Below the pieces are notes generated by a model. That model saw only the letters and a program-made list of their open reading frames with translations. It did no database searches and was not told where the DNA came from. A stretch of DNA of 46,849 nucleotides from Pseudomonadota bacterium (GTDB taxonomy: Bacteria > Desulfobacterota > Desulfobulbia > Desulfobulbales > Desulfocapsaceae). The first letter of the stretch is position 1; each line of letters opens with the position of its first letter. This document shows, piece by piece, positions 2,468 through 33,192 of this stretch. The translations under genes and the position numbers were made by a program. The stretch is from contig JAHJLI010000031.1 of assembly GCA_018821785.1 (NCBI GenBank), positions 1 to 46,849 of the forward strand, written 5' to 3'.

Positions 2468-2542
2468 AACTTACCCGGTGAACGGGATAAGTAACTTAAC
2501 GAAATTGGTTTTTAAAAAACAAGAAACGAATTTCTAAGGTAC
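2468..2542 (-). repeat. Dispersed 52-bp palindromic repeat, copy 1
   Basis: The 52-bp core is at 2491-2542 and the CCCG/CGGG tail hairpin is at about 2473-2487. Read on the minus strand, it starts GTACCTTAGAAATTCG and ends CGTTAAGTTAC, with a T-rich loop between the arms. It lies between hisA and the HDOD gene, ending 22 bp before the HDOD start. The core length is identical to that of copies 2-4. Confidence 0.85.
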
Positions 2543-2564
2543 TCAATGAATATTTAGAAAATGT

Positions 2565-3428
2565 ATGGCATCTCACAAGGAAAGACAGCGAAGAGAGATT
2601 GAAAAATTCATTGAAAGAATGCCGAGTCTGTCAACAACAGTCGGCAAGGTAATGGAAATTTGCAGCCGAACCGACGCGTCTCCCAATGAACTGAACAAGG
2701 TAATTTCGCTTGATCCGGTCCTGGCTGGCCAAGTTCTAAAACTCATTAACTCCGCTTACTATTCCCTGGTAAATAAAGTCACATCATTAACCAGGGCAAT
2801 TACAATGCTGGGGATGAATACAGTAAAAAATATGGTACTCAGCACGGCAATTATTCGAACCGTTGCTGGAACAAAGAAATCCAGGGCCCTGCCAACCACC
2901 AAATTCTGGGCCCATTCAATTGGCGTTGGTGTAAGTGCCAAACTCCTTGGAGAAGCAAAGGGGTTCCCCGCCATGGAAAGGGAAGAGTTGTTTATTGCCG
3001 GTTTGCTCCACGATCTCGGCAAGGTACCTTTTGGCGATGACTATATCGAGGCCTTGAATATTGCAAAATTCGAACAGTTGCCGCTCTATGAAGTAGAGCT
3101 TGATGTCATGGGTATTAACCACCAGGAGGTGGGGTTGATGATCGCCGATAAATGGAAACTGAACGATGTTATAACCTCCTGTATAGGCACTCACCATGAA
3201 ATTGACAAAATGGCGGGAGACGACGCCGGCCAGAAGGTGGCCTTGGTAGCCCTCGGCAACATGTATACCAATATTTTTGACCACGGTTATGCCGGTGATC
3301 CTTTCCCCAGGGAGGAGGATGTCGAGCTTCTTAGAAGATCGGTAGACCTGACGCCTGACGAATTTTGCGGGATCGGCGAGAGAGTGATTGAGGAAATTCG
3401 CAAGGCTGAAGTCTTTTTAAAGTTATAA
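2565..3428 (+). CDS. HDOD domain protein
   Basis: The 287-residue cytoplasmic protein is almost entirely an HDOD domain. It has the N-terminal helical part (MPSLSTTVGKVMEIC, SLDPVLAGQVLKLINSAYYS, ITSLTRAITMLG-like) and a degenerate HD motif GLLHDLGKVPFG near residues 146-157, followed by NHQEVGLMIADKW and THHEID. HDOD proteins are regulatory relatives of HD-domain phosphohydrolases and are often involved in signalling. Here HD, NHQEVG and THH are all retained, so weak metal binding is possible. No GGDEF, EAL or receiver domain is attached. The start follows palindromic repeat copy 1 closely. The specific role is unknown. Confidence 0.85.
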   Translation: MASHKERQRREIEKFIERMPSLSTTVGKVMEICSRTDASPNELNKVISLDPVLAGQVLKLINSAYYSLVNKVTSLTRAITMLGMNTVKNMVLSTAIIRTVAGTKKSRALPTTKFWAHSIGVGVSAKLLGEAKGFPAMEREELFIAGLLHDLGKVPFGDDYIEALNIAKFEQLPLYEVELDVMGINHQEVGLMIADKWKLNDVITSCIGTHHEIDKMAGDDAGQKVALVALGNMYTNIFDHGYAGDPFPREEDVELLRRSVDLTPDEFCGIGERVIEEIRKAEVFLKL

Positions 3429-3508
3429 TTCCGAATATATCTTCTGAATATTACATGCAAAAATTGCAGACGTGCAAATAAACACATCAGAAATCAACAG
3501 GAGCTGAT

Positions 3509-4426
3509 ATGAAAGTTCGCTTTTGGGGTGTACGGGGATCAATTCCCAGTCCCGGGCCGGAAACCCAGAAGTATGGCGGCAACACAGCCTGCATTGAGAT
3601 GCGTGTGGGATCTGATGACCGACTCATTATCATTGACGCCGGCTCAGGTATTCGTTCCCTCGGCAACTATATAATGGTGAACGACCTGCCTAAAGGACCG
3701 ATCAAAGCCGATATTTTCCTTTCCCATACGCACTGGGATCATATCATGGGCTATCCGTTTTTTACCCCGATTTACATTCCAGGGACCACTTTAAGGGTGT
3801 ATGGCCCGGTCTCTTTTGAGGAGGATCCTTTGGAAGAAGTAGTGGGAGGTCAGATGAAATACCGCTATTTTCCAATCAATCTCGGCGAGCTTGCTTCGGA
3901 AATTGAATATATCCGGTTAAAGGAGGCTCCCTCCATCGACCTTGGAAACGGCCTGCTCCTCTCGACTAAGCTGCTCAACCATCCCATCACCGCCTTGGGG
4001 TACCGTTTCACCCACAATAGTAAGGTGGTCTGTACCTGCTACGATACCGAACCATTTCGCAATTTGTTTATCACCGACCCTGCCAACCCTGATTATGACG
4101 AGGCTATGGCCATTGAAGGGGAGGAAGTGGCAGTCGAGCAAAATCTTACTGTCGAAAATTTTTTTGCCGGGGCCGACCTGCTTATCCATGATGCCCAATA
4201 TTTGGCCGCTGAGTTTGGGGCACGAATAAACTGGGGACACACGTCGATCGAATATGCAATTGCCGCCGCCAACCGGGCGGGAGTGAAAAAACTGGCGCTT
4301 TTTCATCATGATCCAGACCGCTCAGATGCGACCCTGGACAAGTTGTCCTCACTCTATTGTGAACCGGGAAAATTTGGGGACACCGAGGTGTTTTTTGCCA
4401 GAGAGGGAATGGAGATACTTCTGTAA
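3509..4426 (+). CDS. MBL-fold metallo-hydrolase
   Basis: The 305-residue metallo-beta-lactamase-fold protein begins MKVRFWGVRGSIPSPG with YGGNTAC, typical of the phosphodiesterase-like (PhnP/RNase Z-related) branch. The zinc motif HTHWDH is at residues 73-78. Further metal ligands are plausible at LNHP, CYDTEP, IHDAQY and the terminal LFHHDP. Such enzymes hydrolyse phosphodiester or cyclic nucleotide bonds, but the substrate cannot be read from sequence. The ATG has AGGAG upstream (AACAGGAGCTGAT). Its stop lies one base from the end of the convergent exonuclease gene, so the two 3' ends abut with no terminator between them. Confidence 0.88.
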   Translation: MKVRFWGVRGSIPSPGPETQKYGGNTACIEMRVGSDDRLIIIDAGSGIRSLGNYIMVNDLPKGPIKADIFLSHTHWDHIMGYPFFTPIYIPGTTLRVYGPVSFEEDPLEEVVGGQMKYRYFPINLGELASEIEYIRLKEAPSIDLGNGLLLSTKLLNHPITALGYRFTHNSKVVCTCYDTEPFRNLFITDPANPDYDEAMAIEGEEVAVEQNLTVENFFAGADLLIHDAQYLAAEFGARINWGHTSIEYAIAAANRAGVKKLALFHHDPDRSDATLDKLSSLYCEPGKFGDTEVFFAREGMEILL

Positions 4427-4427
4427 T

Positions 4428-5261
4428 TCACCAGGAAGAAAGGGACCGTCTTACCCGTTCGATACAGTCATAATCGGCGTGAAATGGCATGGCCGGTGGA
4501 GTGGGAAAAGGCAGGAAGAGATGCTCGGAAAATGGGCTGCCCATAACGTTACGGTTGTAGGCTTCGATTGCCAGGCGTTCGAGATTGACGGTGTCCTCAA
4601 TGTTATAGGCCAGAAGCGTGTGCAGTGCCTTTTCGTCGTTATAATCCCTGTAACGCTGCCAGAGCAGCACGGCAAAATAGCCATCGACCCCATCCAGGCT
4701 GCCGCGGTTCATGCCTAGCTTTTTCTCACATCCTTTTAACCCACCCTTGAATCCAAGCCGAGCCAGGACATATCTTAAATCGATTTGCGCATGGTTCAGT
4801 TTAATTCTGAAAAATCTCTCCAGGACTGGAACGTCAAAGCTCTTGCCGTTGTAACTGACAATAACCTGATATCTGTGTATGGCGTCGACAAAATCATGGA
4901 GATTGATGCCATTGACGTAGGTAAATACCTGCCTGCCGTCATAGAGGGAAATGGTGGTTATCTCGGCAGAGTCGTCAAGTCCGGTGGTTTCGATATCAAG
5001 ATAAGCTGTACGTGCACGGAAGTGGGGGAAAATTCGCCAAACCTCGGAGCTGTCAAGGCGTTTGGTGAAAAAGCTGGGATCGTCTTCTAGGGCAGTTGTT
5101 GAGCTCTTCAGGGTTAGCATGGCATCGACACGGGTGATGGCGGAGAGACGGATGGGAGGCGGGTTCCGCCACTTGTCCCAAGTGGTGATACCCGCCTCCC
5201 AGAGTTTTGTCTCAATCTTGCGGCCGATGCCGGGAATATGAGAGAAGGTGTGCTGCAGCAT
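4428..5261 (-). CDS. YprB-type ribonuclease H-like 3'-5' exonuclease
   Basis: The 277-residue protein has a short helix-hairpin-helix-like N-terminus (IPGIGRKIETKLWEAGI, residues 9-25). A DEDD exonuclease core follows: YLDIETTGL with Asp89 and Glu91, then VSYNGKSFDVPVLE, DLRYVLARLG and AYNIEDTVNLERL, giving the four expected acidic residues. This is the YprB_RNaseH-like family, predicted nucleases acting on DNA or RNA. It lies downstream of the DEAD-box helicase on the same strand, separated from it by palindromic repeat copy 2, so a shared RNA-processing role is possible but unproven. Confidence 0.85.
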   Translation of the reverse strand: MLQHTFSHIPGIGRKIETKLWEAGITTWDKWRNPPPIRLSAITRVDAMLTLKSSTTALEDDPSFFTKRLDSSEVWRIFPHFRARTAYLDIETTGLDDSAEITTISLYDGRQVFTYVNGINLHDFVDAIHRYQVIVSYNGKSFDVPVLERFFRIKLNHAQIDLRYVLARLGFKGGLKGCEKKLGMNRGSLDGVDGYFAVLLWQRYRDYNDEKALHTLLAYNIEDTVNLERLAIEAYNRNVMGSPFSEHLFLPFPTPPAMPFHADYDCIERVRRSLSSW

Positions 5262-5275
5262 TGCTTCCTTGTTTC

Positions 5276-5347
5276 GTACCTTAGAAATTGGTTTCTTGTT
5301 TTTTAAAAACCAATTCCGTGAAGGTACTTTTCCCGCTTATTGGGGTT
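5276..5347 (+). repeat. Dispersed 52-bp palindromic repeat, copy 2
   Basis: The core at 5276-5327 runs from GTACCTTAGAAATTGG to CCAATTCCGTGAAGGTAC, the most symmetrical copy. The tail CCCGCTTATTGGGG is at 5332-5345. It lies between the helicase stop (5355) and the exonuclease start (5261); on the minus strand the tail comes first and the core ends 14 bp before the exonuclease ATG. Confidence 0.9.
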
Positions 5348-5354
5348 AGCATCC

Positions 5355-7172
5355 TTAGATGACGGGAGCGCTATAAACGGGTTTTTTCCTGGCCTTTGCC
5401 GTTGAAGCCTTTGCAGTTGAACCGGCATTGTATCGCTCACGCTCAGGCTTCTGGCGTCTGGCAGGAGGCTGGGGAGTTTCAATGCCCGCGCCAATTCTCT
5501 GAATTCTCATGGTCTTGCTGCCGACACGGCTCTTTTGTAATACGTGTAAGATATCATCCGGCATACCGACGGGCAGGTCAACGGTGCTGTAGGAATCGTA
5601 GATAGAAATTCGTCCAATATGTCGGCTGTTGATATCGGCCTCATTGGCAATGGCACCGACTATGTTTGCCGGCTTAATGCCCTGCTCGCTGCCGAGTTCA
5701 ATCCGGAACCGTTCCATCCCTTCCTCGGGTGGCAGCTGGATGTTCGAGGATCTCGATCCGGCTCCGGTTCGGGCTTTAGGTCTGGGGCCGGCAGAATAGC
5801 GTTGTTCCCGAACAGAAGTCTCGGGGACTTTCTGCTCTTCGAGCAGCAGCGGTCTGCTGCCCTGAGCAAGCAGGGCGAGCGCTGCCGCCAGTTGCTCGGG
5901 CTTGACAGTATTTTCCTGCAGATATTCGTTTACCAGGGTTTGGTAAATGGAGGTGTCGCTCTTCAGGGCGGTGGTGATTTTTTCCTTGAAATTGTCGATT
6001 CGTTTTTTGTTTATGGCTGTAGTCGAGGGCAAGTCGGCCATCTGGATTTTCTGTCTGGTGGTCTGTTCGATCGACTTGAGCATGGATCGTTCCCGGCCAT
6101 TGATAAAAAGAATAGCCTCTCCGCTTCGGCCTGCTCTTCCGGTTCGGCCGATGCGGTGAATATATGCCTCGGCATCAAAAGGAATATCGTAATTGATAAC
6201 ATGACTGATGCGCTCGACGTCAAGGCCGCGGGCGGCGACATCGGTGGCGACAAGGATGTCTATCTTTTTGGACTTCAACTGCTCGACAGTACGCAGCCGC
6301 TGGCTTTGTTGGATATCACCATTAAGCGGAGCGACAGAGTACCCGAGCGCTGCCAGCTGCTCGGCGAGTTCTACTGTCTGAATTTTGGTGCGGACGAAAA
6401 TGAGCATGCCGTCAAAGGTCTCAGCTTCGAGAATTCTGCTCAAGGTATTCAATTTTGCCGCCAGGCCATTGGTGATAAGGCATCTTTGGTTGACGGTCTG
6501 GGCGGAAACGGTCTTGCTTCTGATGGTTACCTCGACCGGGTTGCTCAGGTATTTTTGGGCGATGTCACGAATGGTTTTGGGCATGGTAGCGGAAAAAAGA
6601 GCGGTCTGCTTTCTGCCGGGCAGTTGCTCAAGAATCCATTTGACGTCCTCAAGAAAGCCCATCTTCAGCATCTCGTCGGCTTCGTCCAGTATCAGGCTGT
6701 GAATAGTCTCCGTCTTCAATGTGCCACGGCGGATGTGATCCATGACCCGGCCGGGAGTGCCGACCACCACCTGGACGCCGCGTTGCAACTGCTTGAGTTG
6801 GATTGTATAATCCTGGCCGCCGAAAATCGGCAGAACCCGGAGATCTCTCATGTGTTTGCCGTAGGTTTCAAAGGCTTCTGCCACCTGGATGGCGAGTTCC
6901 CGAGTGGGAGCGAGAACGAGGATCTGTGGACTTCTGGTTTTGTCGGGCTGGAGCCTGGTGAGCAGCGGCAGAGCGAATGCGGCAGTTTTTCCGGTGCCGG
7001 TCTGGGCTTGTCCGACCACATCTTTTCCCGCCAGCATATGAGGAATCATTTCCTGTTGGATAGGGGTGGGGATTTCGTATCCGGCGTCGTTGATAGCCTT
7101 AAGAAGAGGGGCGGCAAGGCCCATGTCGGAGAAGGAAAGCGTTGGGGTCTCAGTTTCATGGAGCGAAGACAT
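5355..7172 (-). CDS. deaD: DEAD-box RNA helicase with DbpA-type RNA-binding domain
   Basis: This ATP-dependent RNA helicase is probably involved in ribosome assembly or mRNA unwinding. The 604-residue form shows all core motifs in order: Q-motif region PTPIQQEMIP, motif I AQTGTGKT, PTRELA, TPGR, motif II DEAD, motif III SAT, ATDVAARGLD and motif VI HRIGRTGRAGR. A C-terminal DbpA/CsdA-type RNA-binding domain follows (IVGAIANEADI...GRISIYDSYSTVDLP), then a basic tail rich in Lys, Arg and Ala. The frame extends to 7229, but the ATG at 7172 is preferred because AAAGGTATT precedes it and the protein then begins like family members (SFSDMGLA). A leader of up to about 500 bp without a convincing gene lies upstream. 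Confidence 0.93.
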   Translation of the reverse strand: MSSLHETETPTLSFSDMGLAAPLLKAINDAGYEIPTPIQQEMIPHMLAGKDVVGQAQTGTGKTAAFALPLLTRLQPDKTRSPQILVLAPTRELAIQVAEAFETYGKHMRDLRVLPIFGGQDYTIQLKQLQRGVQVVVGTPGRVMDHIRRGTLKTETIHSLILDEADEMLKMGFLEDVKWILEQLPGRKQTALFSATMPKTIRDIAQKYLSNPVEVTIRSKTVSAQTVNQRCLITNGLAAKLNTLSRILEAETFDGMLIFVRTKIQTVELAEQLAALGYSVAPLNGDIQQSQRLRTVEQLKSKKIDILVATDVAARGLDVERISHVINYDIPFDAEAYIHRIGRTGRAGRSGEAILFINGRERSMLKSIEQTTRQKIQMADLPSTTAINKKRIDNFKEKITTALKSDTSIYQTLVNEYLQENTVKPEQLAAALALLAQGSRPLLLEEQKVPETSVREQRYSAGPRPKARTGAGSRSSNIQLPPEEGMERFRIELGSEQGIKPANIVGAIANEADINSRHIGRISIYDSYSTVDLPVGMPDDILHVLQKSRVGSKTMRIQRIGAGIETPQPPARRQKPERERYNAGSTAKASTAKARKKPVYSAPVI

Positions 7173-7699
7173 AGTAATACCTTTACAGAAGGGGTTGATT
7201 CCAAAGAAGAACTTAGAAACCGTCGGCAAACAACTTGACCATTTATACTGATCGTAACGGCTTCTTGTTGCCGTCCCGCTCTTTTAATTTGGTTAAGCTA
7301 TTCTTAGACAACGGCCTATTGTGCAAAGCCTGCCCGGGAAAGAAACATCGGTCGTAAATCAAAGAGAATAACTCCTGATTCTCAGCGGCCGATGAGCATG
7401 TGTCCGTCCAGTTTTGCGCAATTAACCCAATTCCGTAAATCAGGATTGGTACCGTCAAGAAGACTATTTTGCCAAATGCTGCAAAATCGCGATTTGAAGG
7501 TACGCATTCCATGTACTGGTCTGACACTCACGATGAAGAGCAGCCTTAATACCAGGATGGGCAATAATATGCAATCTATTTATGCAGGTGATTTTACGTT
7601 ATTCGGTGATTTGTACATCATAATAAGAGGCGGTGTCCGGTTTCTGCCCTTCTCGAAACCGGACCATGGGTGGATTATAAAAAAAATACGAGAACACTC
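7173..7699. other. Gene-free leader region upstream of deaD
   Basis: No convincing gene is present. The region holds a small hairpin near the helicase (ACGGC / GCCGT around 7258-7274) and a GTACC...GGTAC inverted repeat at 7449-7503. A perfect 10-bp hairpin is at 7635-7664. Long untranslated leaders are known for cold-regulated DEAD-box genes; whether this is one is inference. Confidence 0.4.
7635..7664 (-). terminator. Hairpin downstream of the flavin reductase gene
   Basis: A perfect 10-bp inverted repeat (GTCCGGTTTC / GAAACCGGAC) with a 10-nt loop lies 36 bp after the stop of the minus-strand gene at 7700. No real T tract follows on the minus strand, so termination is plausible rather than certain. 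Confidence 0.5.
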
Positions 7700-8200
7700 C
7701 TATAAGATCGCATAACAGGCGAGAATCTCCCCGAAGTAAAGGGTATGGTAATCTTTTTTTGGATACAACTTTTCCATATCGGCGTCGAGAAAGGTGCTGT
7801 CCATTGCCGATTTATAGACGATTCGGCATTCGTAGTGATTGCCGGGAATATCGATTATCGGGGACTGCACCAGCTGTGCTGCCTTCTGCTGCAGGCCGCA
7901 TTCCTTGAATTTGTCGATATCACGGCCGGATTTGGTGCCGCAGGTCATGACCGCATCATGGAAGGTATTGGGAGCAGGCACAGTGACGGTAAAGTTGTCG
8001 GTTTTTTCCAGCAGGGAAAAAGTGTGGCGCGAATCCCGTACGGCGATCATAAAGACCGGTCGTTGCCAGATGTAGCCGATGGTGGCCCAGCCGATGGTCA
8101 TGGTGTTGACTTTGCCGTCGGCAAGAACGGTGAGAAAAGCTCCTTTCTTGATTCTTTCCATCATCTGGTCGGCATTTTCCAGGTATCCTGTAGTGTGCAT
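7700..8200 (-). CDS. Flavin reductase-like FMN-binding protein
   Basis: The 166-residue protein fits the flavin-reductase-like split-barrel family. It has KKGAFLTVLADGKVNTMTIGWATIGYIWQRPVFMIAVRDSRHT at the N-terminus, which forms the FMN site, then NFTVTVP and MTCGTKSGRDIDKF. Members bind FMN and act as NAD(P)H:flavin oxidoreductases or ferric reductases, often in anaerobes. The substrate is not evident. It has a GAAGGA ribosome-binding site, and ArfB lies 46 bp upstream on the same strand, so the two are probably co-transcribed. Confidence 0.85.
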   Translation of the reverse strand: MHTTGYLENADQMMERIKKGAFLTVLADGKVNTMTIGWATIGYIWQRPVFMIAVRDSRHTFSLLEKTDNFTVTVPAPNTFHDAVMTCGTKSGRDIDKFKECGLQQKAAQLVQSPIIDIPGNHYECRIVYKSAMDSTFLDADMEKLYPKKDYHTLYFGEILACYAIL

Positions 8201-8246
8201 GGTGTCGTCCTTCTGTTAAAATGGTGGGTTGAGCGGGGGAGGCGGG

Positions 8247-8666
8247 TCAGGAATCGCTGACCTTCTTCCGCATGGACTTGATTCTGCCTCTCCTGGTCTT
8301 GCTTTCGACCCTTTTTTGTCTGGCACCCACCGACGGGCGGGTTGGCGTTCGCTTTTTTTCAGTGACGGTGACATGGCGGATGATCCTCGCCAAACGTTCA
8401 AGAGCATCTGTACGGTTTTTCTCTTGGGTCCGGTACTGTTGGGCCTTGATGACGAGAATGCCGTCGCCGCTCAAACGCTGGTCGCTCATGGCCAGGAGTC
8501 GTTCCTTGTAGATGTCCGGCAGGGATGAGGCACGGATGTCAAAACGCAGGTGAATGGCGCTGGCAACCTTGTTGACGTTCTGGCCTCCTGCTCCCTGAGC
8601 CCGAATGGCGATGAGGGTGATTTCATGGTCTTGAAGAGAAATCTTCCTGTTAATGATAAGCACCAC
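8247..8666 (-). CDS. arfB: Alternative ribosome-rescue factor / peptidyl-tRNA hydrolase ArfB
   Basis: The 139-residue protein has the class I release-factor signature: RAQGAGGQNVNKV with the catalytic GGQ at residues 27-29. The strongly basic C-terminal tail (KKRTPTRPSVGARQKRVESK, then RRGRIKSMRKK) is the part that in ArfB/YaeJ enters the empty mRNA channel of stalled ribosomes. It lacks the codon-recognition domain of RF1/RF2, and its length fits ArfB. It hydrolyses peptidyl-tRNA on non-stop ribosomes. It is the first gene of a probable two-gene unit with the flavin reductase. Confidence 0.92.
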   Translation of the reverse strand: MVLIINRKISLQDHEITLIAIRAQGAGGQNVNKVASAIHLRFDIRASSLPDIYKERLLAMSDQRLSGDGILVIKAQQYRTQEKNRTDALERLARIIRHVTVTEKKRTPTRPSVGARQKRVESKTRRGRIKSMRKKVSDS

Positions 8667-8729
8667 GGCGACAAAACTCCAAAGGGTCGTTAAAATTATC
8701 GGGATATGCTTTCAGTTAATTGAATAATG

Positions 8730-8759
8730 TTACATATCCTGCTATGGTACCTGTATAAT
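8730..8759 (+). promoter_or_regulatory. Sigma-70-like promoter for the zinc-ribbon protease
   Basis: A perfect TATAAT at 8754-8759 lies 18 bp after TTACAT at 8730-8735 and about 50 bp upstream of the protease ATG at 8810. No competing gene overlaps it. Confidence 0.5.
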
Positions 8760-8809
8760 GCGGCCTTGTCGAGTAATCACGTTAAAAAAACAACCTGCTG
8801 GGAAGAGAT

Positions 8810-9946
8810 ATGCGCTGCCCAAAGTGTAATAACGAACAGAAGAATACAGTTGAATGCGACGTCTGCGGGGTGATTTTCGCGAAATACCAGAAAATCCTTG
8901 ATCGGCGCAAAGAGGAAGAGGCACTTAAGGCTCTTCCAGACGCAAAATCAGGCCTGGGGTTGAAGTTTCTCCAGGTGCTTCTTCTCGTGGTGGTCGTTGC
9001 TGGAACTACCTACTATTTCACCGGAAAACAGTCGACTCTGCCATTTGCTCAGCCACAGGTTGAAGTTGCTCCGGTTACCAAGGCACCTTCAGTTCCTGGC
9101 GAAACTCCGGAGGCAAGGGTGTCCAGGCCGCAACCTGTTGTAAGCTCTCAGCCGGCAGTTATGAAGGGCAATACTATCGAACGGGCGAGGGATGCTACTG
9201 TATCAATTGAAACACCATGGGGAACCGGATCCGGTTTTTTTGTCAATAAAAATTATATTGTCACTAATCGCCATGTGGTTTCCTTCGACGAAAAGAAACT
9301 TGCCGCGTTACGCGACAAGGTGGAAAAGGATCTGAGGTTTTTCGAACTGGAGCAACAGAAGCTCAATGAATGGAAGGAAAGATATCGGCAAATGCCCAAT
9401 AGCCCTTCGCGAAGTCAGCTGGCCATGATTATTGAACGGCATGAGCAAGAACTGCAAAAGGTTCAGCCCATGCTCCAGGAAAATGAACGGAAACTGGCAA
9501 AGGTGGACCGAAAAATTCAGCCCTCTGATATCAAGATAATACTCTCCGACGGCAGTTCGCAGTCCGCCAATTATCTCCTGGTCAGTTCTGTCTATGATCT
9601 GGCCCTGATGTCGTTATACGCCGGTGAACAGACCTTTATCGAGAAACCTCCGGCCGGCTCAAACTTGCACCAGGGTGACAAGGTTTATGCCATCGGCAGT
9701 CCTGTGGGGCTCAGGCATACTGTGACTGCCGGGATTTTTTCCGGCTATCGGGCGCAGGGTCAAGATGGTCAGATATACATACAGACCGATGCGGCCATTA
9801 ATCCTGGCAATAGCGGCGGACCGATCATCGACGACAATGGTTACGTACGTGGCGTGACAACCATGATTCTCCAGAATACCGAAGGCATAGGTTTTGCCAT
9901 TCCCATAGAGAAGGTGTTCGAGGAGTTTAGCTCGTCATTATATTGA
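8810..9946 (+). CDS. Membrane-anchored HtrA-like serine protease with N-terminal zinc ribbon
   Basis: The 378-residue protein has three parts. Residues 1-28 form a zinc ribbon (CPKC...CDVC). Residues about 52-72 are one transmembrane helix (FLQVLLLVVVVAGTTYYF), followed by a Pro-rich linker. The rest is an S1C trypsin-like domain with His155 (VTNRHVV), Asp263 (VYDLALM) and Ser335 (NPGNSGGP). About 80 residues of charged heptad-like sequence, predicted coiled coil, are inserted between His155 and Asp263. There is no PDZ domain. The predicted topology is ribbon in the cytoplasm and protease in the periplasm, suggesting envelope quality control or signalling. The ATG at 8810 has GGAAGAG upstream. 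Confidence 0.9.
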   Translation: MRCPKCNNEQKNTVECDVCGVIFAKYQKILDRRKEEEALKALPDAKSGLGLKFLQVLLLVVVVAGTTYYFTGKQSTLPFAQPQVEVAPVTKAPSVPGETPEARVSRPQPVVSSQPAVMKGNTIERARDATVSIETPWGTGSGFFVNKNYIVTNRHVVSFDEKKLAALRDKVEKDLRFFELEQQKLNEWKERYRQMPNSPSRSQLAMIIERHEQELQKVQPMLQENERKLAKVDRKIQPSDIKIILSDGSSQSANYLLVSSVYDLALMSLYAGEQTFIEKPPAGSNLHQGDKVYAIGSPVGLRHTVTAGIFSGYRAQGQDGQIYIQTDAAINPGNSGGPIIDDNGYVRGVTTMILQNTEGIGFAIPIEKVFEEFSSSLY

Positions 9947-9967
9947 TGCCCGTGCTGCTGGTCCTTT

Positions 9968-11209: not shown

Positions 11210-11577
11210 GCACTTCCTTCACAAAAGAATATGAAATAATCCAAGTAAATGATGATATGTAGTTTTTAACCAGCCTTCCCGAGGGGGCTTTTATTTGGGA
11301 AAACCTTTTGCAAACTACTACAGTGTCAAAAAAAGAAAAAGGCCTAAGAGACGGCAGCGTCAATCCAGGTTGTCGTAACCTTTCGGTCGCCGGGCACGAG
11401 TATGGTTTTTTCCGTTGAATAATCATCCATCATGTTTAATAGTACGCCTGTTCGGCGTTGCTGCCGGAGCTTCATTTTTGCTAAGGGCAGTTATGGTTTG
11501 TGTCTTGACCGCTGCAAGAATGAGGAATAACACTCTGAAATATATAATAAAAGAGCCATATGGCTTGAAGGAGAATC
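11210..11577. other. Intergenic region between divergent flavoprotein and FKBP genes
   Basis: No gene is supported. It must hold the two divergent promoters. The FKBP side has the TTGACC/TAACAC candidate and an AAGGAG ribosome-binding site at 11568-11573. Confidence 0.5.
11505..11533 (+). promoter_or_regulatory. Candidate promoter for the FKBP gene
   Basis: TTGACC at 11505-11510 and TAACAC at 11528-11533 are separated by 17 bp, and the start codon lies 45 bp downstream. The -10 box is a weak match. Confidence 0.35.
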
Positions 11578-12012: not shown

Positions 12013-12061
12013 ACCGAGTCGCGACGACATTGTCCCGAGAGCCTGACCGGATTCGGCAGGC

Positions 12062-22008: not shown

Positions 22009-22073
22009 CACCGCCGGCCCAAGGCACTTATCCCGTTTACCGGGGATATTCTTGTGCCGGCGGTGTTTTTTTT
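22009..22073 (+). terminator. Terminator after the Tim44-like gene, containing the repeat tail
   Basis: An outer 10-bp stem CACCGCCGGC / GCCGGCGGTG is followed by eight T residues. Its interior holds a second hairpin at 22026-22045 (ATCCCG TTTA CCGGGG). That 20-mer matches 19 of 20 bases of the tail of dispersed repeat copy 3. Confidence 0.88.
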
Positions 22074-23941: not shown

Positions 23942-24502
23942 GGCAGCAGGCGATTGAAAGTGTAATTTTAAATGCTGTACCTGTTACAGAACATGATAGA
24001 TGATGAAGAGTGGAAAATCCAGGTAGATTCCAACCATTTGTCAAACTCTATACATGGGGAATTCTACCTTGCCATCAATCGCAGCCGTATGCAGGTTGGC
24101 ATTCTCCCGAAAATATGCATCATTTTGAATCTTTTTCCATTGTCACAGCCAAGTCTAGCGATCCTCCATTCAAAAGAAGTATCTCCATCCTGTCTGCACA
24201 GAACATTGCGTAACTACCTGTGAATATGTTAAGATGTCTCATTTTTAGCTGGTCTTATTAAAACTGACAGGCATCTTGATAATGTCAAAAACCACCAACA
24301 GAGGAGGGTGCAGCCGGGACAAATAATAAAAACTCATTCATGATAAAGATTGGGATGACTGGAAATTGGTTTATCTGACTCGGCACCAAAGAGGTGGAGA
24401 AACTATTCTTTAATTTGCACTTTAGTACCAACGAAGATCGTTTCTTGTTTTTTATAAACAAATTTCGTTAAAGTACTTATCCCGTTTATCGGGGTTTGAT
24501 GA
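23942..24502. other. Intergenic region between rtcB and the LCIB-like gene
   Basis: A stretch of about 560 bp between divergent genes, AT-rich, with no supported gene. It carries palindromic repeat copy 3 at its right end and presumably both promoters. I see no recognisable riboswitch. Confidence 0.4.
24425..24497 (+). repeat. Dispersed 52-bp palindromic repeat, copy 3
   Basis: The 52-bp core at 24425-24476 runs from GTACCAACGAAGATCG to AATTTCGTTAAAGTAC. It is followed by the perfect tail hairpin ATCCCG TTTATCGGGG ending near 24495. The tail abuts the GTG/ATG start region of the LCIB-like gene. Confidence 0.88.
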
Positions 24503-24538
24503 GTGTCCAATGACCAACCAAAAATGAGAGTGATCACT

Positions 24539-25717: not shown

Positions 25718-25737
25718 GCATTTGTCAGTCGATATCA

Positions 25738-25784
25738 TTGCCGCCTGCGCCTCACAGGCATGTTTCGGCACAGGCGGCAATTTT
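25738..25784. terminator. Bidirectional-type terminator between LCIB-like and LysR genes
   Basis: A perfect 10-bp stem (TTGCCGCCTG / CAGGCGGCAA) has a 23-nt apical region that itself can pair weakly. It is followed by TTTT on the plus strand. It separates two convergent genes. Confidence 0.75.
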
Positions 25785-25815
25785 CTGGTCGATGGCCTGC
25801 GATACTGTTTCCGAT

Positions 25816-26778: not shown

Positions 26779-26779
26779 T

Positions 26780-26820
26780 AGTTAAACTTACTCTAAAATG
26801 AAATTAATGTAAATTTACTC
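26780..26820. promoter_or_regulatory. Candidate LysR operator between divergent genes
   Basis: The gap holds a perfect 10-bp palindrome GTAAATTTAC at 26809-26818 and a related half-site GTTAAACTTAC starting at 26781, about 28 bp apart. Each is followed by TC. This fits the two-site, AT-rich layout of LysR operators, but a binding test is needed. Confidence 0.4.
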
Positions 26821-26865
26821 ATCGCTGTAAGCCGGGTATATGTAGATTTAGGGAGAGTATCTCTC

Positions 26866-29337
26866 TTGTTAACCAAGAATAAAGGGAATAAGAAAACAGC
26901 GATGACAACTCAACAGAGTGGAAGTACTTCCCCTGTCCAGTTAAGGATAGATTTTTCGGCTATTACCAATCTTTTCAAAAATGCCAAAGAACAAGGCCGA
27001 CAAACCCTTTTTGAGCATGAAACCTATGAATTGCTGCGTAATAGTGGTGCGGAAACACCGCCACGCACCAATTTTCTGCTGAAAGGAAGCCGTCTTTCGG
27101 ATGAAGAGTTGATGGCAATGCCCGGATCAAAAGTGGTAATGAAAATCGTCTCGCCGGCCATTATTCACAAGACCGAGGTAGGTGGAGTGAAGATGATCGA
27201 AAAATTGGCAGAGAAGATCCGTTCGACCTGGCGGCGGATGATGTACGAGGTGCCGGAGAATTATGCCCGACTGATTGAGAGAGATCCCGGCCATGCGCCT
27301 GAAATTTATCGCCATTTGTCGGGTGAACATCTGTTGCAGTCGATTTCCAGAGATATCCAGGGGGTACTGATGGTTCAGTTCATGCCTCCCGATTCCGAGG
27401 CCTTCGGCAATGAAATGATCGTCGGTATCCGCAACACCCGTGAGTTTGGGATGATCATCAGCGCAGGTCTTGGCGGCACCGATACCGAGCTGTATGCCGA
27501 GCGCTTCCGTAAAGGACAGGCGGTTGTCGCCGCCTCCACCGTTATGACTGATGGCCTGTCATTTTTTGAACTGTTTCGTAAAACCATATCGTACCGCAAG
27601 CTGGCCGGTCTCACCAGGGGGCAGCGGCGTATTGTGACTGATGAGCAGATCGTGGAGTGCTTTTGTTCTATGATTGAACTGGCCAATTACTATTCTCCCC
27701 TCAACCCCGACTCGCCTTTTGTCATCGAAGAACTGGAAATAAATCCCTTTGCCTTCACCGATTTTTTGATGGTTCCTCTTGACGGCATGTGCCGTTTTTC
27801 AACGCCTGGTGCTCTGCCTGCGGCAAGGCCTTACCAAAAGATAGGCAAGTTATTGAAGCCTGCGAAAATCGGCATCATCGGAGTTTCTACGACCCGGGAA
27901 AATTATGGCAGGGTCATTCTCAACAACATTCTGGCCAACGGTTACGAAAAAGAAAACATCCGCATAATCAAGTCGGGAATTGAGAGTTTTGAAGGCATCA
28001 CCTGTGTTCCTGATCTCCAGGCTCTTGAGTGGAGACTCGATCTTTTTGTCGTAGCAGTTGGTTCCGACCAGGTTGCTACGATTGTTGATGAAATTATCAA
28101 AACAAATGTTGCCGAGGCGGTCATGCTCATTGCCGGAGGTATGGGCGAGACCGGCGAAAGTCTTATTCGCGCTTCAGAATTGATGGGTAAAATTAAAGCG
28201 GCTCATGCGATCGGGGATGGTGGCCCAGTGTTTCTTGGTGCCAATTGTCTCGGGGTTATCTCTCACCCGGGAAAATACGACACCTTATTTATTCCCGAGG
28301 TGAAACTTCCCAAGCAGCGCGGTAACCGAAAGCGTAATGCCGCCTTCATCAGCCAATCCGGGGCCTTTATGATTACCCGGTTGAGCAAGCTTCCGGAGAT
28401 TGACCCGGCGTATATGATTTCGGTCGGTAACCAGAACGACCTGACCTTAGGCGATATTCTTCGTTATCTGAAAGATGATCCGGCGATAGACGTCATTGGT
28501 GTGTACGCCGAAGGGTTTCAGGATTTTGACGGTCTCGCCTTTGCCAAAGCAGTGCATGGCGCCGTTGTCGGCGGCAAGGATGTGATTTTCTACAAGGCCG
28601 GTCGCACCCCCGAAGGGAAAACCGCTTCCTCGGGCCATACTGCGTCGCTCGCCGGCGATTATATGGTTTGTGAATCCTGTATACGTCAAGCCGGCGGGAT
28701 TGTAACCGAAACTTTTTCTCAGTTTGAAGATTTGCTGATGCTTTCGCAGCGCTTACATAATAAAAAAATACATGGCAATCGCCTGGCAGCTGTGAGCGGC
28801 GCAGGTTTTGAGGCAGTGGGGATGGCCGATAATATCCAGTCCGATGATTATCAAATGCAAATGGCTGTGTTTAACACAGTGACGGTTCTGAAACTGAAAC
28901 AGGTATTGAAAGAAAAGGGTTTAGATGTCTTGGTGGAAGTCAAAAACCCCTTAGATATCAACCCGGGTGCTGATGATGAGGTGCATATTAAAGTCGTTGA
29001 TACCCTTACATGCGACCCACATGTCGACGCGGTGGTTATAGGTCTTGACCCTCTTTCTCCCGTCATGCGAACCCTGTCAGATACTGAGTCGGCCAGGTAC
29101 TCTTTTAATAATCCCGGAAGTATTGCCAGGGAAATGCCAAGGCTTGTCGCAGAGCGGGATAAGCCTGTGGTCGGCGTGGTTGATGGAGGGCGGTTGTATG
29201 ACCCGCTGGTTGACCACCTGGCGGCAGGCGGCATGACTGTCTTCCGATCCTCAGACAGTGCTATTCGCGCTCTTTCGAGGTATATCGAAGGACGGTTATG
29301 TGCTGAACAATTGCGAGAAAAGCACAAGCTTCGGTAA
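26866..29337 (+). CDS. NDP-forming acyl-CoA synthetase (acetate-CoA ligase family), single-chain
   Basis: The 823-residue protein fuses an N-terminal ATP-grasp part (FEHETYELLRNSGAETPP, VVMKIVSPAIIHKTEVGGV, IVGIRNTREFGMIISAGLGGTDTE, VIEELEINPF) to a CoA-binding Rossmann domain (KIGIIGVSTTRENYGRVILNNI). A succinyl-CoA-ligase-like part follows (AFISQSGAFM, SVGNQNDLTLGDILRYL, SGHTASLAG with the phospho-histidine at residue 591). Such enzymes make ATP from acyl-CoA or activate short acids. The beta-then-alpha domain order differs from many alpha-beta fusions. The TTG at 26866 has a strong GGGAGAG site; ATG 26902 is the alternative. The gene is probably controlled by the divergent LysR regulator. 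Confidence 0.88.
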   Translation: MLTKNKGNKKTAMTTQQSGSTSPVQLRIDFSAITNLFKNAKEQGRQTLFEHETYELLRNSGAETPPRTNFLLKGSRLSDEELMAMPGSKVVMKIVSPAIIHKTEVGGVKMIEKLAEKIRSTWRRMMYEVPENYARLIERDPGHAPEIYRHLSGEHLLQSISRDIQGVLMVQFMPPDSEAFGNEMIVGIRNTREFGMIISAGLGGTDTELYAERFRKGQAVVAASTVMTDGLSFFELFRKTISYRKLAGLTRGQRRIVTDEQIVECFCSMIELANYYSPLNPDSPFVIEELEINPFAFTDFLMVPLDGMCRFSTPGALPAARPYQKIGKLLKPAKIGIIGVSTTRENYGRVILNNILANGYEKENIRIIKSGIESFEGITCVPDLQALEWRLDLFVVAVGSDQVATIVDEIIKTNVAEAVMLIAGGMGETGESLIRASELMGKIKAAHAIGDGGPVFLGANCLGVISHPGKYDTLFIPEVKLPKQRGNRKRNAAFISQSGAFMITRLSKLPEIDPAYMISVGNQNDLTLGDILRYLKDDPAIDVIGVYAEGFQDFDGLAFAKAVHGAVVGGKDVIFYKAGRTPEGKTASSGHTASLAGDYMVCESCIRQAGGIVTETFSQFEDLLMLSQRLHNKKIHGNRLAAVSGAGFEAVGMADNIQSDDYQMQMAVFNTVTVLKLKQVLKEKGLDVLVEVKNPLDINPGADDEVHIKVVDTLTCDPHVDAVVIGLDPLSPVMRTLSDTESARYSFNNPGSIAREMPRLVAERDKPVVGVVDGGRLYDPLVDHLAAGGMTVFRSSDSAIRALSRYIEGRLCAEQLREKHKLR

Positions 29338-29765
29338 ATGAATTTCTGGAGTGCCATATTGATTTTTCCCCGCTCGCGCCTTATTATTCTTGTAAATTTT
29401 CCAATGCGGCAATGCTCAATATGTTTCACGGGAACTGCCCCCTTTGCTTATCCTCTTTGCTTTGCTTTGCAGTCTGTTGTAAGATAGGAGGAGATGTCGA
29501 AAATCGGGGTGATGTTTGTGCACACCGGGTGCCTTTGGAGTGTTCTAATCCCGACAAACGGGATTATTAACGATAACTCAAAGAATTAAGGCACTTAAAG
29601 AAAATCATTATAAAAACAGATTCAAGATATTTTCTCAAAGAGAATAATGGATTGAGTTCGGCAAGAAGTTGTTCTTGTTTTCCTCGGTATTGGGGCAGGG
29701 CATTCGAACTACCCTGTTGTGGCCTTTAATAATTTAAAATAATTCAGCAACCAGGGAGGGAATCG
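29338..29765. other. Intergenic region upstream of the 36-residue repeat protein
   Basis: No gene is supported. It carries a degenerate remnant of the dispersed repeat at about 29547-29597 and ends with a strong GGGAGGG ribosome-binding site. A promoter should lie in the AT-rich 29590-29640 stretch but no clear -35/-10 pair stands out. Confidence 0.4.
29547..29597 (-). repeat. Degenerate remnant of the dispersed palindromic repeat
   Basis: On the minus strand it reads GTGCCTTA...CGTTAATAATCCCGTTTGTCGGGATT in two parts. The left end and the tail hairpin match the family, but the centre has lost about 20 bp. Confidence 0.45.
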
Positions 29766-32099
29766 ATGAAAAAAATGATACTGTCTGCCGCCGTTCTGCT
29801 GGCTTTTAACGTGTCAGATGGATTTGCGGCCTCAAAAGTTGAAGGTGTTGCGGCAAACAACGCAGAAGTTTCGCAAGCCGCCAATGTGGCAATCGGCGAA
29901 GACAACAAGGCAAGTCTCGGCTCGCTGAATATAAAAAATTCCCAGACCAAAGGCGTGGTGATCAATAACGCCAATGTGAAACAAGCCGCCAACGTCGCAA
30001 TCGGCAAAGGCAATGCGGCTAACATGGGTTCGACTCAGATACAGGACTCCAAGGTCACAGGAGCGGTGGTCAACAACGCCAATGTTCAGCAGGCCGCCAA
30101 CGTCGCTATTGGTAAAAACAACACTGCCAACATGGGTTCGACTCAATTGAAGGGCTCCGATGTCAAGGGGGCGGTTATCAACACCGGCAAGGTCTCACAA
30201 GCTGCTAATGTGGCAATAGGCGAGAACAATACCGCCAGTCTCGGTTCGACCCAGATAAAGGATTCAACAATTAAGGGAGCTGTAATTAATGCCGCCAACG
30301 TCTCACAGGCCGCCAACGTCGCCATTGGCAAGGATAATACTGCCAATCTCGGTTCGACCCAGGTGCAGGGTTCGACTGTGAAAGGGGCTGTCATTAACGC
30401 CAGCAATACCACACAGGCAGCCAACGTAGCTATCGGTCAGGGCAATACCGCTAATCTCGGTTCAACCCAGCTGAAAGACTCGGATATCAAGGGGGCAGTG
30501 ATCAATGTCGGCAATACTACCCAGGCAGCCAACGTTGCTATCGGCAAGGATAATACTGCCAATCTCGGTTCGACTCAGCTTCAGGGTTCCTCTGTGAAAG
30601 GGGCGGTAATCAACGTCGGCAATACCTCCCAGGCGGCCAACGTTGCTATCGGTCAGGGTAATACTGCCAATCTTGGTTCGACTCAGCTCAAAGACTCTGA
30701 TATCAAGGGTGCAGTGATCAATGTCGGAAATACTGCTCAGGCAGCTAACGTCGCCATCGGCAAAGATAACACCGCCAACCTCGGTTCGACTCAGCTTCAG
30801 GGTTCTTCTGTAAAAGGGGCGGTGATTAATGTCGGCAATACCGCCCAGGCCGCCAACGTTGCTATCGGCCAGGGGAATACTGCAAACCTCGGTTCGACTC
30901 AGCTCAAAGACTCTGATATCAAGGGTGCAGTGATCAATGTCGGCAATACTGCCCAGGCCGCCAACGTCGCCATCGGCAAGGATAACACTGCAAACCTCGG
31001 TTCGACTCAGCTTCAGGGTTCTTCGGTAAAAGGGGCGGTGATCAACGTTGGTAATACCGCCCAGGCAGCCAACGTTGCTATTGGTCATGGGAATAACGCC
31101 AACCTCGGGTCAACCCAGCTTCAGGGATCAGACGTTAAGGGTGCTGTGGTCAACGTCGGCAATACCTACGCCGCAGCCAATGTTGCTATCGGCAAGGATA
31201 ACACTGCCAATCTCGGTTCTACCCAGTTGAAGGATTCGAGCGTCAAGGGGGCTGTCGTTAATATCGGAAACACTGCCGGAGCCGCCAATGTGGCTATCGG
31301 CAAAGGTACCACAGCCAACCTCGGGTCGACCCAGATCCAGGGCTCAGATGTTAAGGGGGCAGTAATTAACGTCGGGAACACTGCGGGAGCCGCTAACGTG
31401 GCTATTGGCAAGGACAGCACCGCCAACCTTGGTTCGACCCAGATTCGTGGGTCAAGCGTCAAGGGGACCGTCCTTAACGTCGGGAACACTGCGGGAGCCG
31501 CCAACGTGGCTATCGGCAAGGACAGCACCGCCAACCTTGGTTCGACTCAGATTCGTGGGTCAAACGTCAAGGGGGCCGTCCTTAACGTCGGGAACACTGC
31601 GGGAGCTGCCAACGTGGCAATTGGTAAAGGTACCAGTGCCAACATGAGCTCAGTGCAGATCAAGAACAGCACGGTCAAAGGCGCAGTCATTAACCAGGCC
31701 AATATCGGTGCTGCCGCCAACGTTGCCATAGGGAAGAACAGCGACGCCAACATGGGTTCGGTACAGATCAAGAACGGCTCACTCAAAGGCGCTGCCATTA
31801 ACCAGGCCAATATCGGCGCTGCCGCCAACGTCGCCATTGGCAGCAACAGCAATGCCAATATGGGATCCATCCAGGTGAAGGACGGCTCGGTTAAGGGCGG
31901 CTTGGTCAATCAGGCCAATATCGGCGCTGCCGCCAACGTCGCCTTGGGCAGGGGAGCGAGTGCCAATATGGGCTCTATCCAGGTGAAGGATTCCACCGTG
32001 GGCGGAGGCATTGTTAACGCCGGTACGGTAGGCCTGTCGGCGAACGTGGCCATCGGTTCCGGATCGACTTCGAACAGCGCCTCAGTCAGTTCTGATTAA
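29766..32099 (+). CDS. Secreted protein built of exact 36-residue repeats (predicted beta-solenoid/fibre)
   Basis: The 777-residue protein has a signal peptide (MKKMILSAAVLLAFNVSDGFAA), then only repeats. N-V-A-I/L-G occurs 21 times at exactly 36-residue spacing from residue 40, the last unit being cut after 18 residues. The consensus has two halves, NVAIGKDNTANLGSTQ and KGAVINVGNTAQAA, rich in Asn, Gly, Ala, Val and Thr. Alternating hydrophobic residues and Asn/Gly turns suggest a stacked beta-solenoid or amyloid-like fibre. There is no Cys or Trp, no autotransporter barrel, LPXTG or Ig domain. It partly recalls YadA-head, curlin and FapC repeats but I cannot place it in a named family. The ribosome-binding site is strong (GGGAGGG). 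Confidence 0.85.
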   Translation: MKKMILSAAVLLAFNVSDGFAASKVEGVAANNAEVSQAANVAIGEDNKASLGSLNIKNSQTKGVVINNANVKQAANVAIGKGNAANMGSTQIQDSKVTGAVVNNANVQQAANVAIGKNNTANMGSTQLKGSDVKGAVINTGKVSQAANVAIGENNTASLGSTQIKDSTIKGAVINAANVSQAANVAIGKDNTANLGSTQVQGSTVKGAVINASNTTQAANVAIGQGNTANLGSTQLKDSDIKGAVINVGNTTQAANVAIGKDNTANLGSTQLQGSSVKGAVINVGNTSQAANVAIGQGNTANLGSTQLKDSDIKGAVINVGNTAQAANVAIGKDNTANLGSTQLQGSSVKGAVINVGNTAQAANVAIGQGNTANLGSTQLKDSDIKGAVINVGNTAQAANVAIGKDNTANLGSTQLQGSSVKGAVINVGNTAQAANVAIGHGNNANLGSTQLQGSDVKGAVVNVGNTYAAANVAIGKDNTANLGSTQLKDSSVKGAVVNIGNTAGAANVAIGKGTTANLGSTQIQGSDVKGAVINVGNTAGAANVAIGKDSTANLGSTQIRGSSVKGTVLNVGNTAGAANVAIGKDSTANLGSTQIRGSNVKGAVLNVGNTAGAANVAIGKGTSANMSSVQIKNSTVKGAVINQANIGAAANVAIGKNSDANMGSVQIKNGSLKGAAINQANIGAAANVAIGSNSNANMGSIQVKDGSVKGGLVNQANIGAAANVALGRGASANMGSIQVKDSTVGGGIVNAGTVGLSANVAIGSGSTSNSASVSSD

Positions 32100-32264
32100 G
32101 CATCCCAGGTGGCGGCAGCCTTTCTTGGTCATAAAACACAGGCCGCCGACCACCCGGACCCCTTTCCCGGCGGAGATTGGTTCTTCCGCCGGGCCATCAC
32201 CTGCAAGCCGCTGGTCCTGACCAAGGCCGTCAGAGGGGAGGCCCTGCTGGCCAACCGTCCATAA
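32100..32264 (+). other. Open frame continuing 54 codons after the repeat-protein stop
   Basis: In the same frame as the repeat protein, the codons after TAA 32097-32099 stay open to TAA 32262-32264, with strongly GC-rich third positions. The translation (for example GHKTQAADHPDPFPGGDWFF) is unlike the repeats. It has no ATG; a GTG at 32109 lacks a ribosome-binding site. It could be a gene remnant or chance. It overlaps a 9-bp hairpin CCCGGCGGA / TCCGCCGGG at 32166-32193, a possible terminator without a T tract. Confidence 0.25.
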
Positions 32265-32297
32265 CCATGGTGGGCACTTGGCGGCTATGCGCTTCTC

Positions 32298-32750
32298 TCA
32301 GAAGCTTTCTTCCAATTTCTCGCTAGAGCGTTTGTTGATGTTTTTAGCGCTACCTTTTCCGGTGGTATTGCCAGGATTGTCGACGTAAGTGTTTAAGATG
32401 GAGTTTTGGATTGCTCCGGCAGAAGTATCGATTTTATTAACGGTGCGGGGCTTGAGGATTGAATTGCCAATTATCCCGGAAGGTGGGTTGCTAGTGTTAG
32501 CAGAGTTGGAATCGATTATTGTTTTTCCGATAGTTCCGGATGTGTTCCCCAGTTTGTCAGTACGGGTGTTTATTCTTGCACTCCCTATGGTCCCCTTGGT
32601 ATTTCCGTATTGGTCAGTATGCATCTTCACTTTCTTGCCATCAATAGTTCCAGTGGTGTTTCCTTTATCGTCGGTGCTGATGTTTGATTGAGCAAAAACG
32701 GTGGAGAGAGAAAGCATGACAATAAGTGCGGTAATGATCTGTGTTTTCAT
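32298..32750 (-). CDS. Small secreted protein with 19-residue GNTxGTI repeats
   Basis: The 150-residue protein has a signal peptide (MKTQIITALIVMLSLSTVFA) and then a Gly/Asn/Thr-rich mature part. A repeat of about 19 residues, D-x-x-G-N-T-x-G-T-I-G, is exact for the first three units (Gly at 30, 49, 68) and degenerates afterwards. The Lys/Arg-rich C-terminus (NINKRSSEKLEESF) lacks an anchor. AGGAG precedes the ATG. It is convergent with the 36-residue repeat protein, and both are exported, cysteine-free, Asn/Gly/Thr repeat proteins, so a shared surface role is tempting but only inferred. I recognise no named family. Confidence 0.75.
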   Translation of the reverse strand: MKTQIITALIVMLSLSTVFAQSNISTDDKGNTTGTIDGKKVKMHTDQYGNTKGTIGSARINTRTDKLGNTSGTIGKTIIDSNSANTSNPPSGIIGNSILKPRTVNKIDTSAGAIQNSILNTYVDNPGNTTGKGSAKNINKRSSEKLEESF

Positions 32751-33192
32751 ATTTTTTGACTCCTGGTTTGTTTAGATCTCAAACACTCTATGCCCCTGCC
32801 ACGGAGAGGCTGTTTCCCCCAGGCAGAAGGCTATCGCTTGTCACTCTTAAAAGGTGGTTTTGGAAAATTGTTTCTGATAGTCAGCAGATCTCCCACCGCT
32901 GATGTTACCTCCTCTCATCGATTTTCACAAATACTATACAATTTCTTCTCCTTTTTCTGGCCAACGATTTTGGCGTGATCCAACCAAATAAATACCGCGC
33001 CGGAAAAAGCAGCCTCCATAAAGGGACCGATTGAAAATACCTATTAAAATGAGTGCAACGCTTTAAGGATTTTGTTCCTCCGAAATTCGTTTCTTGTTTT
33101 TTATTAACAAATTTCGTGAAGGTACTTTTCCCGTTTACAGAAGCGAGAAAGATGTGGCAGTCCTTGTTTCGATTCTCCCAGGAGCCACTCGT
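32751..33192. other. Intergenic region with palindromic repeat copy 4
   Basis: About 440 bp between two minus-strand genes. It holds repeat copy 4 at 33074-33137 and the promoter region of the 19-residue repeat protein. No gene is supported. Confidence 0.4.
33074..33137 (+). repeat. Dispersed 52-bp palindromic repeat, copy 4
   Basis: The core at 33074-33125 runs from GTTCCTCCGAAATTCG to AATTTCGTGAAGGTAC. The tail is truncated to CCCGTTTAC. It lies about 55 bp beyond the histidine-kinase stop, in the spacer before the minus-strand 19-residue repeat protein gene. Confidence 0.88.

Follow-up and report, generated by a model that had tools for sequence, protein, structure and literature searches.

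Repeats with two hairpins and a TTA end in a Desulfocapsaceae genome: probable copies of a non-autonomous mobile element

What are the four 52-bp palindromes that lie dispersed between the genes of a desulfobacterial contig? The window, meaning the whole 46,849-nucleotide stretch analyzed here, is contig JAHJLI010000031.1 of assembly GCA_018821785.1 (Pseudomonadota bacterium; Desulfocapsaceae in GTDB). It is contig C35 of a draft genome of 5.47 Mb in 315 contigs, called the source genome (G000) below. A sequence-only reading had proposed either a mobile family resembling miniature inverted-repeat transposable elements (MITEs) or repetitive extragenic palindromes (REPs), or a cis-acting RNA. 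We conclude, with a probability of roughly 0.8, that each repeat is a copy of a non-autonomous mobile DNA element of approximately 73 bp, 5'-(TTTA)/G-hairpin 1-TTAT-hairpin 2-TTA/-3' (slashes, element ends), which would be moved by an enzyme acting in trans and cutting a folded strand. The mobile half of the proposal is borne out by copy number, patchiness, empty sites, target preference and tandem copies with a single TTAG. The cis-acting RNA, the MITE in its strict form and the REP in its strict form are not.

The unit consists of hairpin 1, which is the 52-bp core, a TTAT linker, hairpin 2 and a terminal TTA, and it is located 3' of a TTTA-like target. Read from core to tail, the consensus is TTTA / GTACCTTAGAAATTCG TTTCTTGTTTTTTATAAA CGAATTTCGTnAAGGTAC TTAT CCCG TTTAC CGGGG TTA / (45 copies of the source genome; 23 copies from 22 genomes aligned). 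The unit as first described was therefore too small: the tail hairpin and the TTA end are also part of the element. In hairpin 1, AGTRCCTT pairs with AAGGYACT to form the outer stem; the internal loop is asymmetric, the inner stem varies, and the loop is of the TTCTTGTTTTTT type. The short hairpin 2 also varies, and in some lineages an extra hairpin stands in front of it. Alignment A1 comprised 45 of 56 nhmmer matches (E below 1e-10). RNAalifold returned no pair from it, so that model R1 was built without structure; the structure was then assigned by hand. Alignment A3 comprised 21 of the 28 loci L092-L119 and two copies from the source genome. Excluded were L110, L113, L114, L116 and L117 (insertions or strong divergence) and L118 and L119 (second copies from one genome).

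Copy number, empty sites and element ends

The family extends well beyond the four copies in the window: the source genome alone contains at least 149 (149 of 150 scored candidates passed; a first look gave 3,048 candidates). A search of relatives yielded matches in 27 of 57 genomes, the source genome included. The same-genus genomes G002, G009, G010 and G013 had none, G002 being merely 56% complete. In a phylum-wide draw, 11 of 197 genomes besides the source had matches (12 of 198 with it), G098 with at least 23 and G206 with 14. Genome G005, 97% complete, held 16 copies in 280 kb (4 of 14 stretches picked around known copies). An exact pattern was present in 30 stretches of named genomes, 29 of which bear Desulfobulbaceae, Desulfocapsaceae or other delta-proteobacterial names and one of which is labelled Chloroflexi. 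These names point to a host that is probably one of the Desulfobulbales. The Chloroflexi stretch (L184; MGMJ01000095.1, Chloroflexi bacterium GWC2_73_18) has 68% G+C and carries a full copy with locally AT-rich sequence; it may reflect horizontal transfer, misbinning or a chimera, which are not distinguishable. Phage and plasmid records contained no consensus match at E 1e-5, and viral contigs contained no match to an exact 25-base pattern. In the source genome, 98 of 102 sampled copies were intergenic, the sample coming from 597 kb picked around known copies and not at random. The element is mobile, non-autonomous and widespread in patches.

Orthologous intergenic regions with and without the insert were compared using three 20-kb regions of the source genome and their relatives. 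Of 13 source sites with both flanks in a relative's locus (flank identity 69-93%), nine were shorter there by at least 40 bp in at least one relative (Table 1). A tenth, L220:16985, was empty in G001, which carries another element nearby. The gap was not shorter in some relatives, namely G006 at L220:1084 and L228:6879, and sites L222:3137 and L222:4054 permitted neither an empty nor an occupied call. When joined flanks were scored against the empty sites, zero offset was best in the sum over eight comparisons (789.0, versus 788.0 at -3 and 786.5 at +1). The best offsets of single cases ranged from -7 to +3, the right cut sometimes falling one base late in the script. The sister genomes have the same stop codon as the source genome at L220:1084 and L228:18463, where it is the left TAG or TAA.

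The ends were evaluated in 81 (left), 76 (right) and, under stricter rules, 67 (both) of the 102 sampled matches. The tetranucleotide to the left was TTAG in 49 of 81 copies, so that the target is a preference and not fixed; a T preceded the TTAG position in 65 of 81. At the right end, TTA plus one base was found in 40 of 76 copies (TTAG 24, TTAA 10, TTAT 4, TTAC 2). These copies belong to family A, the family of the four palindromes. A second family, B, of approximately 106 bp, has the same layout (TTAG-hairpin-TTAT-hairpin-TTA) and a different sequence. Its right ends, located in 28 of 32 copies, had TTA plus one base in 17 (TTAG 7, TTAC 5, TTAT 3, TTAA 2). Target duplication was sought copy by copy: left and right tetranucleotides were identical in 16 of 67 copies of family A, against a shuffled mean of 16.3. 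Because the match is at the shuffled level, TTAG as a target duplication is disfavoured. The simplest reading is that the right TTA is the element's own and the left TTTA is target.

Tandem copies with one common TTAG were found in genomes G022, G006, G206 and G005. Similarly, in loci L020 and L033 a family A copy adjoins the right end of a family B copy, with a single TTAG common to both. Insertion of new copies at the TTA end of older ones would leave just such a single TTAG.

These ends bear directly on whether the repeats are classical MITEs moved by a DDE transposase, for example of the IS5 type. IS5-type enzymes generate YTAR duplications, and TTAG on both sides resembles such a 4-bp duplication; the overrepresentation of G behind the right TTA in family A and the imperfect, GCCGTTA-like inverted ends of family B point the same way. 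Yet left and right sides agree no more than by chance in family A (6 of 28 in family B, with no shuffled control), the base after the right TTA varies in family B, and family A has no terminal inverted repeat, starting with TACC and ending with GGGG before the TTA (TACC versus CCCC). A strict MITE, with terminal inverted repeats and a target duplication, thus fails for family A, and movement by a DDE transposase is hardly probable at all. ERIC, RUP and NEMIS are MITEs of DDE elements that are short, palindromic, non-autonomous and intergenic. Family A is likewise short, palindromic, non-autonomous and intergenic, but has neither matching terminal repeats nor a target duplication.

Pairing of the hairpins between and within genomes

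Covariation in the arms was strong in both hairpins when copies were compared between genomes. The 23 copies aligned, drawn from 22 genomes, had 94.7% of their cells paired. Twelve pairs and 49 cells had changed on both sides, versus shuffled means of 6.0 and 15.5, and none of 500 shuffles reached either value. In slid versions of the alignment, such two-sided changes reached no more than 5 pairs and 9 cells. Within the source genome, divergence was 0.053 in stems versus 0.047 in unpaired columns, and pairing survived 23 of 84 single changes (27.4%; expected 27.1%). Copies there decay at a near-neutral rate, and any constraint in place is weak. Based on the strong covariation between genomes and the near-neutral decay within one, the structure seems to be needed for movement and not in place.

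The arms of individual copies were compared in G005 (15 of 16 copies; L407:4088 was out of register) and in the source genome (68 copies). In G005, the 5' arms differed at 4.5 of 15 bases between copies, whereas arms mismatched at 0.93 of 15 within copies. Seven of the 15 copies were perfectly complementary, and the inner stems were nearly private to each copy (loci L406-L419). In the source genome, mismatches were 1.74 of 11 within copies versus 1.95 between them, in a register that was not hand-checked. Thus, selection or palindrome correction affects lineages to a greater extent than it affects copies fixed in the source genome.

Template switching at quasi-palindromes is a correction mechanism, and the covariation could reflect such correction in a passive repeat and not selection on a recognized structure. 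Nearly matching arms in otherwise diverged G005 copies are what correction would leave, and subfamilies A and C have the inner loop in opposite orientations. However, the mismatches of the source genome are uncorrected, and the internal loop and loop motif are conserved across subfamilies. We consider this explanation improbable.

Strong hairpins that covary between genomes, with pairing in place slightly above that of shuffles, are also expected of a cis-acting RNA, be it a 5' untranslated-region regulator, a processing site or a terminator, copied to many genes. The positions of some copies would suit one: the left side faces a gene start in 59 copies, 17 of them within 30 bp of it, and 19 of 81 copies coincide exactly with the stop codon of a gene (11 sense TAG, 9 antisense TAA, one both). 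The latter frequency exceeds that at non-coding TTAG sites (32 of 385; Fisher p 0.0003), the counts resting on a home-made gene caller. Some of these stop codons may be supplied by the insertion itself. Against such an RNA stand the near-neutral loss of pairing in the source genome and the empty sites in sister genomes. In addition, the tail-then-core orientation relative to the next gene, pointed out for copies 1, 2 and 4, is not a rule: among 61 sampled copies between genes of the same direction, the split was 35 versus 26 (p 0.31). Rfam 15 gave no match above the gathering score in the window and five further loci. Finally, the families of neighboring genes are general. In a Pfam scan of 133 of the 152 neighbor genes within 300 bp, response regulators were the most frequent, with 11, among the best 25 of 277 families. 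A cis-acting RNA is accordingly very improbable. The same best 25 families included no transposase common to the neighbors, although a rare one would escape, and the 10 neighbors in low-copy genomes and at L184 had no gene in common.

The mobilizing enzyme and known systems

An enzyme supplied in trans would fold one strand and recognize the hairpins, whose outer stem is conserved, whose internal loop is asymmetric, whose loop is of the TTCTTGTTTTTT type and whose inner stem varies. Its cleavage would follow TTA at each end, much like the handling of hairpin ends by IS200/IS605-type HUH transposases. To judge from the ends, a hairpin-processing single-strand transposase of the HUH type is the probable mover.

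The nearest candidate belongs to an ordinary REP system, in which a resident REP-associated tyrosine transposase (RAYT; TnpA-REP, Pfam Y1_Tnp) would be the mover and TTAG would take the place of the GTAG tag. The layout is REP-like, with high copy number, intergenic palindromes, a tetranucleotide at the 5' foot and clusters. Moreover, Y1_Tnp matches occurred in 50 of the 57 genomes of the relatives search, with at least one in 15 of the 18 element-bearing genomes searched and six in the source genome. Two of those six loci hold a copy of the element, versus approximately 0.5 expected (chance of at least two in six, 0.07 at the genome's minimum density). At L058, 0.52 kb separates a whole copy from the Y1 open frame, and a 155-codon open frame lies in this interval. 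At L060, nhmmer found a copy missing part of the unit, 0.1 kb from a Y1 fragment.

Several results speak against a RAYT. In 63 Y1 loci, taken with up to 1.5 kb on each side and representing the best matches of each search, a subset of Y1 genes, the covariance model found one copy (that at L058), not as a flanking pair. In 36 of these loci, nhmmer recovered the copies at L058 and L060 and found family B in none. No RAYT gene with the element on both sides was present among the 63 loci. Nor was a parental insertion sequence with these ends and a Y1 transposase, within draft genomes and the best Y1 matches per search. Despite its 16 copies and many perfect arms, G005 had no Y1_Tnp match at E 0.001; G101 and G246, with weak element copies, likewise had none. 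Three of the six Y1 genes in the source genome show, by eye, other terminal repeats, e.g. GGGACACTTCCC. A strict REP, with a GTAG or CGTC tag and a RAYT gene flanked by the repeat, thus fails in the loci inspected: GTAG stood at 1 of 81 left and 2 of 76 right ends, and CGTC at 0 of 81 and 0 of 76. On balance, a RAYT-driven REP system is unlikely. As a separate observation, inverted repeats like GGGACACTTCCC stand on both sides of the resident RAYT-type gene at L057 and form another kind of REP-like end.

Two other candidates were discarded. A gene carried between split halves of the element was rejected by inspection, as partial copies (e.g. L228:8041 and L236:7668) form no pairs around a gene. 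GTTRRRY boxes are a feature of integron attC sites; they are absent at the left end, and attC was dropped.

Several points weigh against a mobile element cut after TTA by an enzyme acting in trans. No enzyme and no autonomous relative was found. Hairpin 1 directly adjoins the target, so that an IS608-type guide could not fit between the two. Joined flanks place the junction to within approximately 4 bp. In family A, G is in excess behind the right TTA (24 of 40), which the element owning its TTA does not by itself explain; part of the target may accordingly be TTAG. At L038:678 (678-743), the orthologous intergenic site in G008 (L100/L053) is also occupied, in the opposite orientation. Pairing among the copies of the source genome was 90.5% of cells versus 89.9% when shuffled, a value reached by 4 of 500 shuffles, and double changes there numbered 6 versus 2.1 expected. 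The bias in replication strand, 37 versus 25, was not significant (p 0.16).

Most REPs fall into two superfamilies: one is GTAG-tagged and has RAYT partners, and the other is CGTC-tagged and has no transposase association in the table given (PMC3733652). Like REP, BIME and REPIN repeats with their RAYTs (PMC3733652, PMC6006769, PMC8266576), the element is intergenic, high in copy number, clustered and patchily distributed; its palindrome is imperfect, contains an internal bulge and has a tetranucleotide at the 5' foot. It differs from GTAG REPs (GTAG/GTGG) in its (T)TTA/G tag, in having two unlike hairpins in approximately 73 bp, and in its own TTA right end, which is shared in tandem. With CGTC REPs, it has in common a palindromic repeat without a listed transposase; its tag, longer unit and second hairpin are different (PMC3733652).

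Elements of the IS200/IS605 type insert 3' of a short target without duplicating it (PMC7290912, PMC2806898). The element resembles the ends of these insertion sequences, including ISDra2 (PMC2806898), and palindrome-associated transposable elements (PATEs), which are ends-only derivatives (PMC7290912): all have hairpin ends, insertion 3' of a short target, no duplication and no terminal inverted repeats. Unlike them, it has no parental insertion sequence with its ends among those found, its hairpin 1 abuts the target, and its two hairpins differ strongly. It is a REP-like or PATE-like palindrome with unusual ends, and its mover is a matter of inference. Desulfotalea psychrophila is in a table of analyzed genomes of PMC12306157. 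The term TTAG is absent from the main text of PMC3733652, PMC6006769 and PMC12306157, and a full-text literature search, whose scope left most subscription journals outside, gave, among the papers listed, no title on a TTAG-tagged repeat in this group.

Tentatively, families A and B could represent a third, phylum-wide superfamily of hairpin elements tagged TTTA/G..TTA/, comprising at least these two families with one layout and moved by an undescribed enzyme other than Y1/RAYT; we hold this broader claim to be somewhat doubtful. The repeats themselves are one more class, found in Desulfobacterota, that combines an end sequence of its own with two hairpins per unit and numerous intact copies. 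They separate structure needed for movement from function in place. They also make it possible to look for a hairpin-processing enzyme with cleavage after TTA; G005, where intact copies are numerous and no Y1 gene was detected, is an obvious genome to start from.

Copies in the window, family B and variants

All four copies in the window were detected using nhmmer at E values of 3e-21 to 2e-18, beyond chance, and their cores coincide with those first reported (Table 1). The exact core length of 52 bp holds for these four; in the family it is usual, not fixed. Both the open reading frame list and the home-made gene caller place the four between genes, as had been noted, and the tail hairpin is indeed kept in three: copies 1 and 3, and copy 2 with one G-T pair. 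The left, target-side end of copy 1, at 2542, faces an ATG at 2565, with 2619 as the start favored by the gene caller; the beginning of copy 2 is 15 bp away from where the gene at 4428-5261 (minus strand) starts. The arm changes of copy 2 do keep pairing, with a compensatory GG..CC instead of the consensus CG..CG. Copy 1 has a C.C mismatch at an arm position where the consensus is CG..CG.

Table 1. Coordinates of repeat copies in the window and of sites compared with relatives (window positions unless a locus is named).
Feature	Position	Strand	Details
Family A, copy 1	2470..2542	minus	hairpin 1, 2491-2542; hairpin 2 (CCCG..CGGG), ~2474-2486; model R3 match 2467-2548, 77.8 bits
Family A, copy 2	5276..5348	plus	hairpin 1, 5276-5327; linker; hairpin 2, ~5332-5345; right-end TTA, 5346-5348; R3 81.6 bits
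Family A, copy 3	24425..24497	plus	hairpin 1, 24425-24476 (5' arm partly decayed); hairpin 2 intact; TTTA precedes; R3 58.9 bits
Family A, copy 4	33074..33146	plus	hairpin 1, 33074-33125; hairpin 2 decayed; R3 50.2 bits
Family A, solo right end (AAGGCACTTATCCCGTTTACCGGGG)	22021..22046	plus	nhmmer E 0.0024; model positions 57-82
Family B, weak copy	1489..1591	plus	nhmmer E 5.4e-8
Family B, weak copy	7213..7319	plus	nhmmer E 3.8e-6
Family B, further loci	L033:1965-2076, L020:2051-2161, L151		
Sites with a gap at least 40 bp shorter in a relative	L224:4254, L220:1084, L220:3136, L220:4895, L220:18598, L228:6879, L228:8041, L228:10069, L228:18463		

The solo right end of family A sits inside the loop of a terminator-like hairpin, CACCGCCGGC..GCCGGCGGTG.

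Family B had at least 40 matches in each of G000, G001 and G004, and its second hairpin resembles an inverted relative of its first. A subfamily C was observed at L220:18598-18680 and L386-L402, with CAGATTATTTTC arms and an outer stem that is often GTGCC/GGCAC. It mostly has the family A loop inverted, GTTCATAAAAAACAAG for CTTGTTTTTTATGAAC, which suggests that the inner hairpin was flipped between subfamilies A and C. In the G098 type (L350:3598 and L345:55), hairpin 1 is followed by AGCTGAAGCAATGCTTC-like sequence in place of TTAT and hairpin 2.

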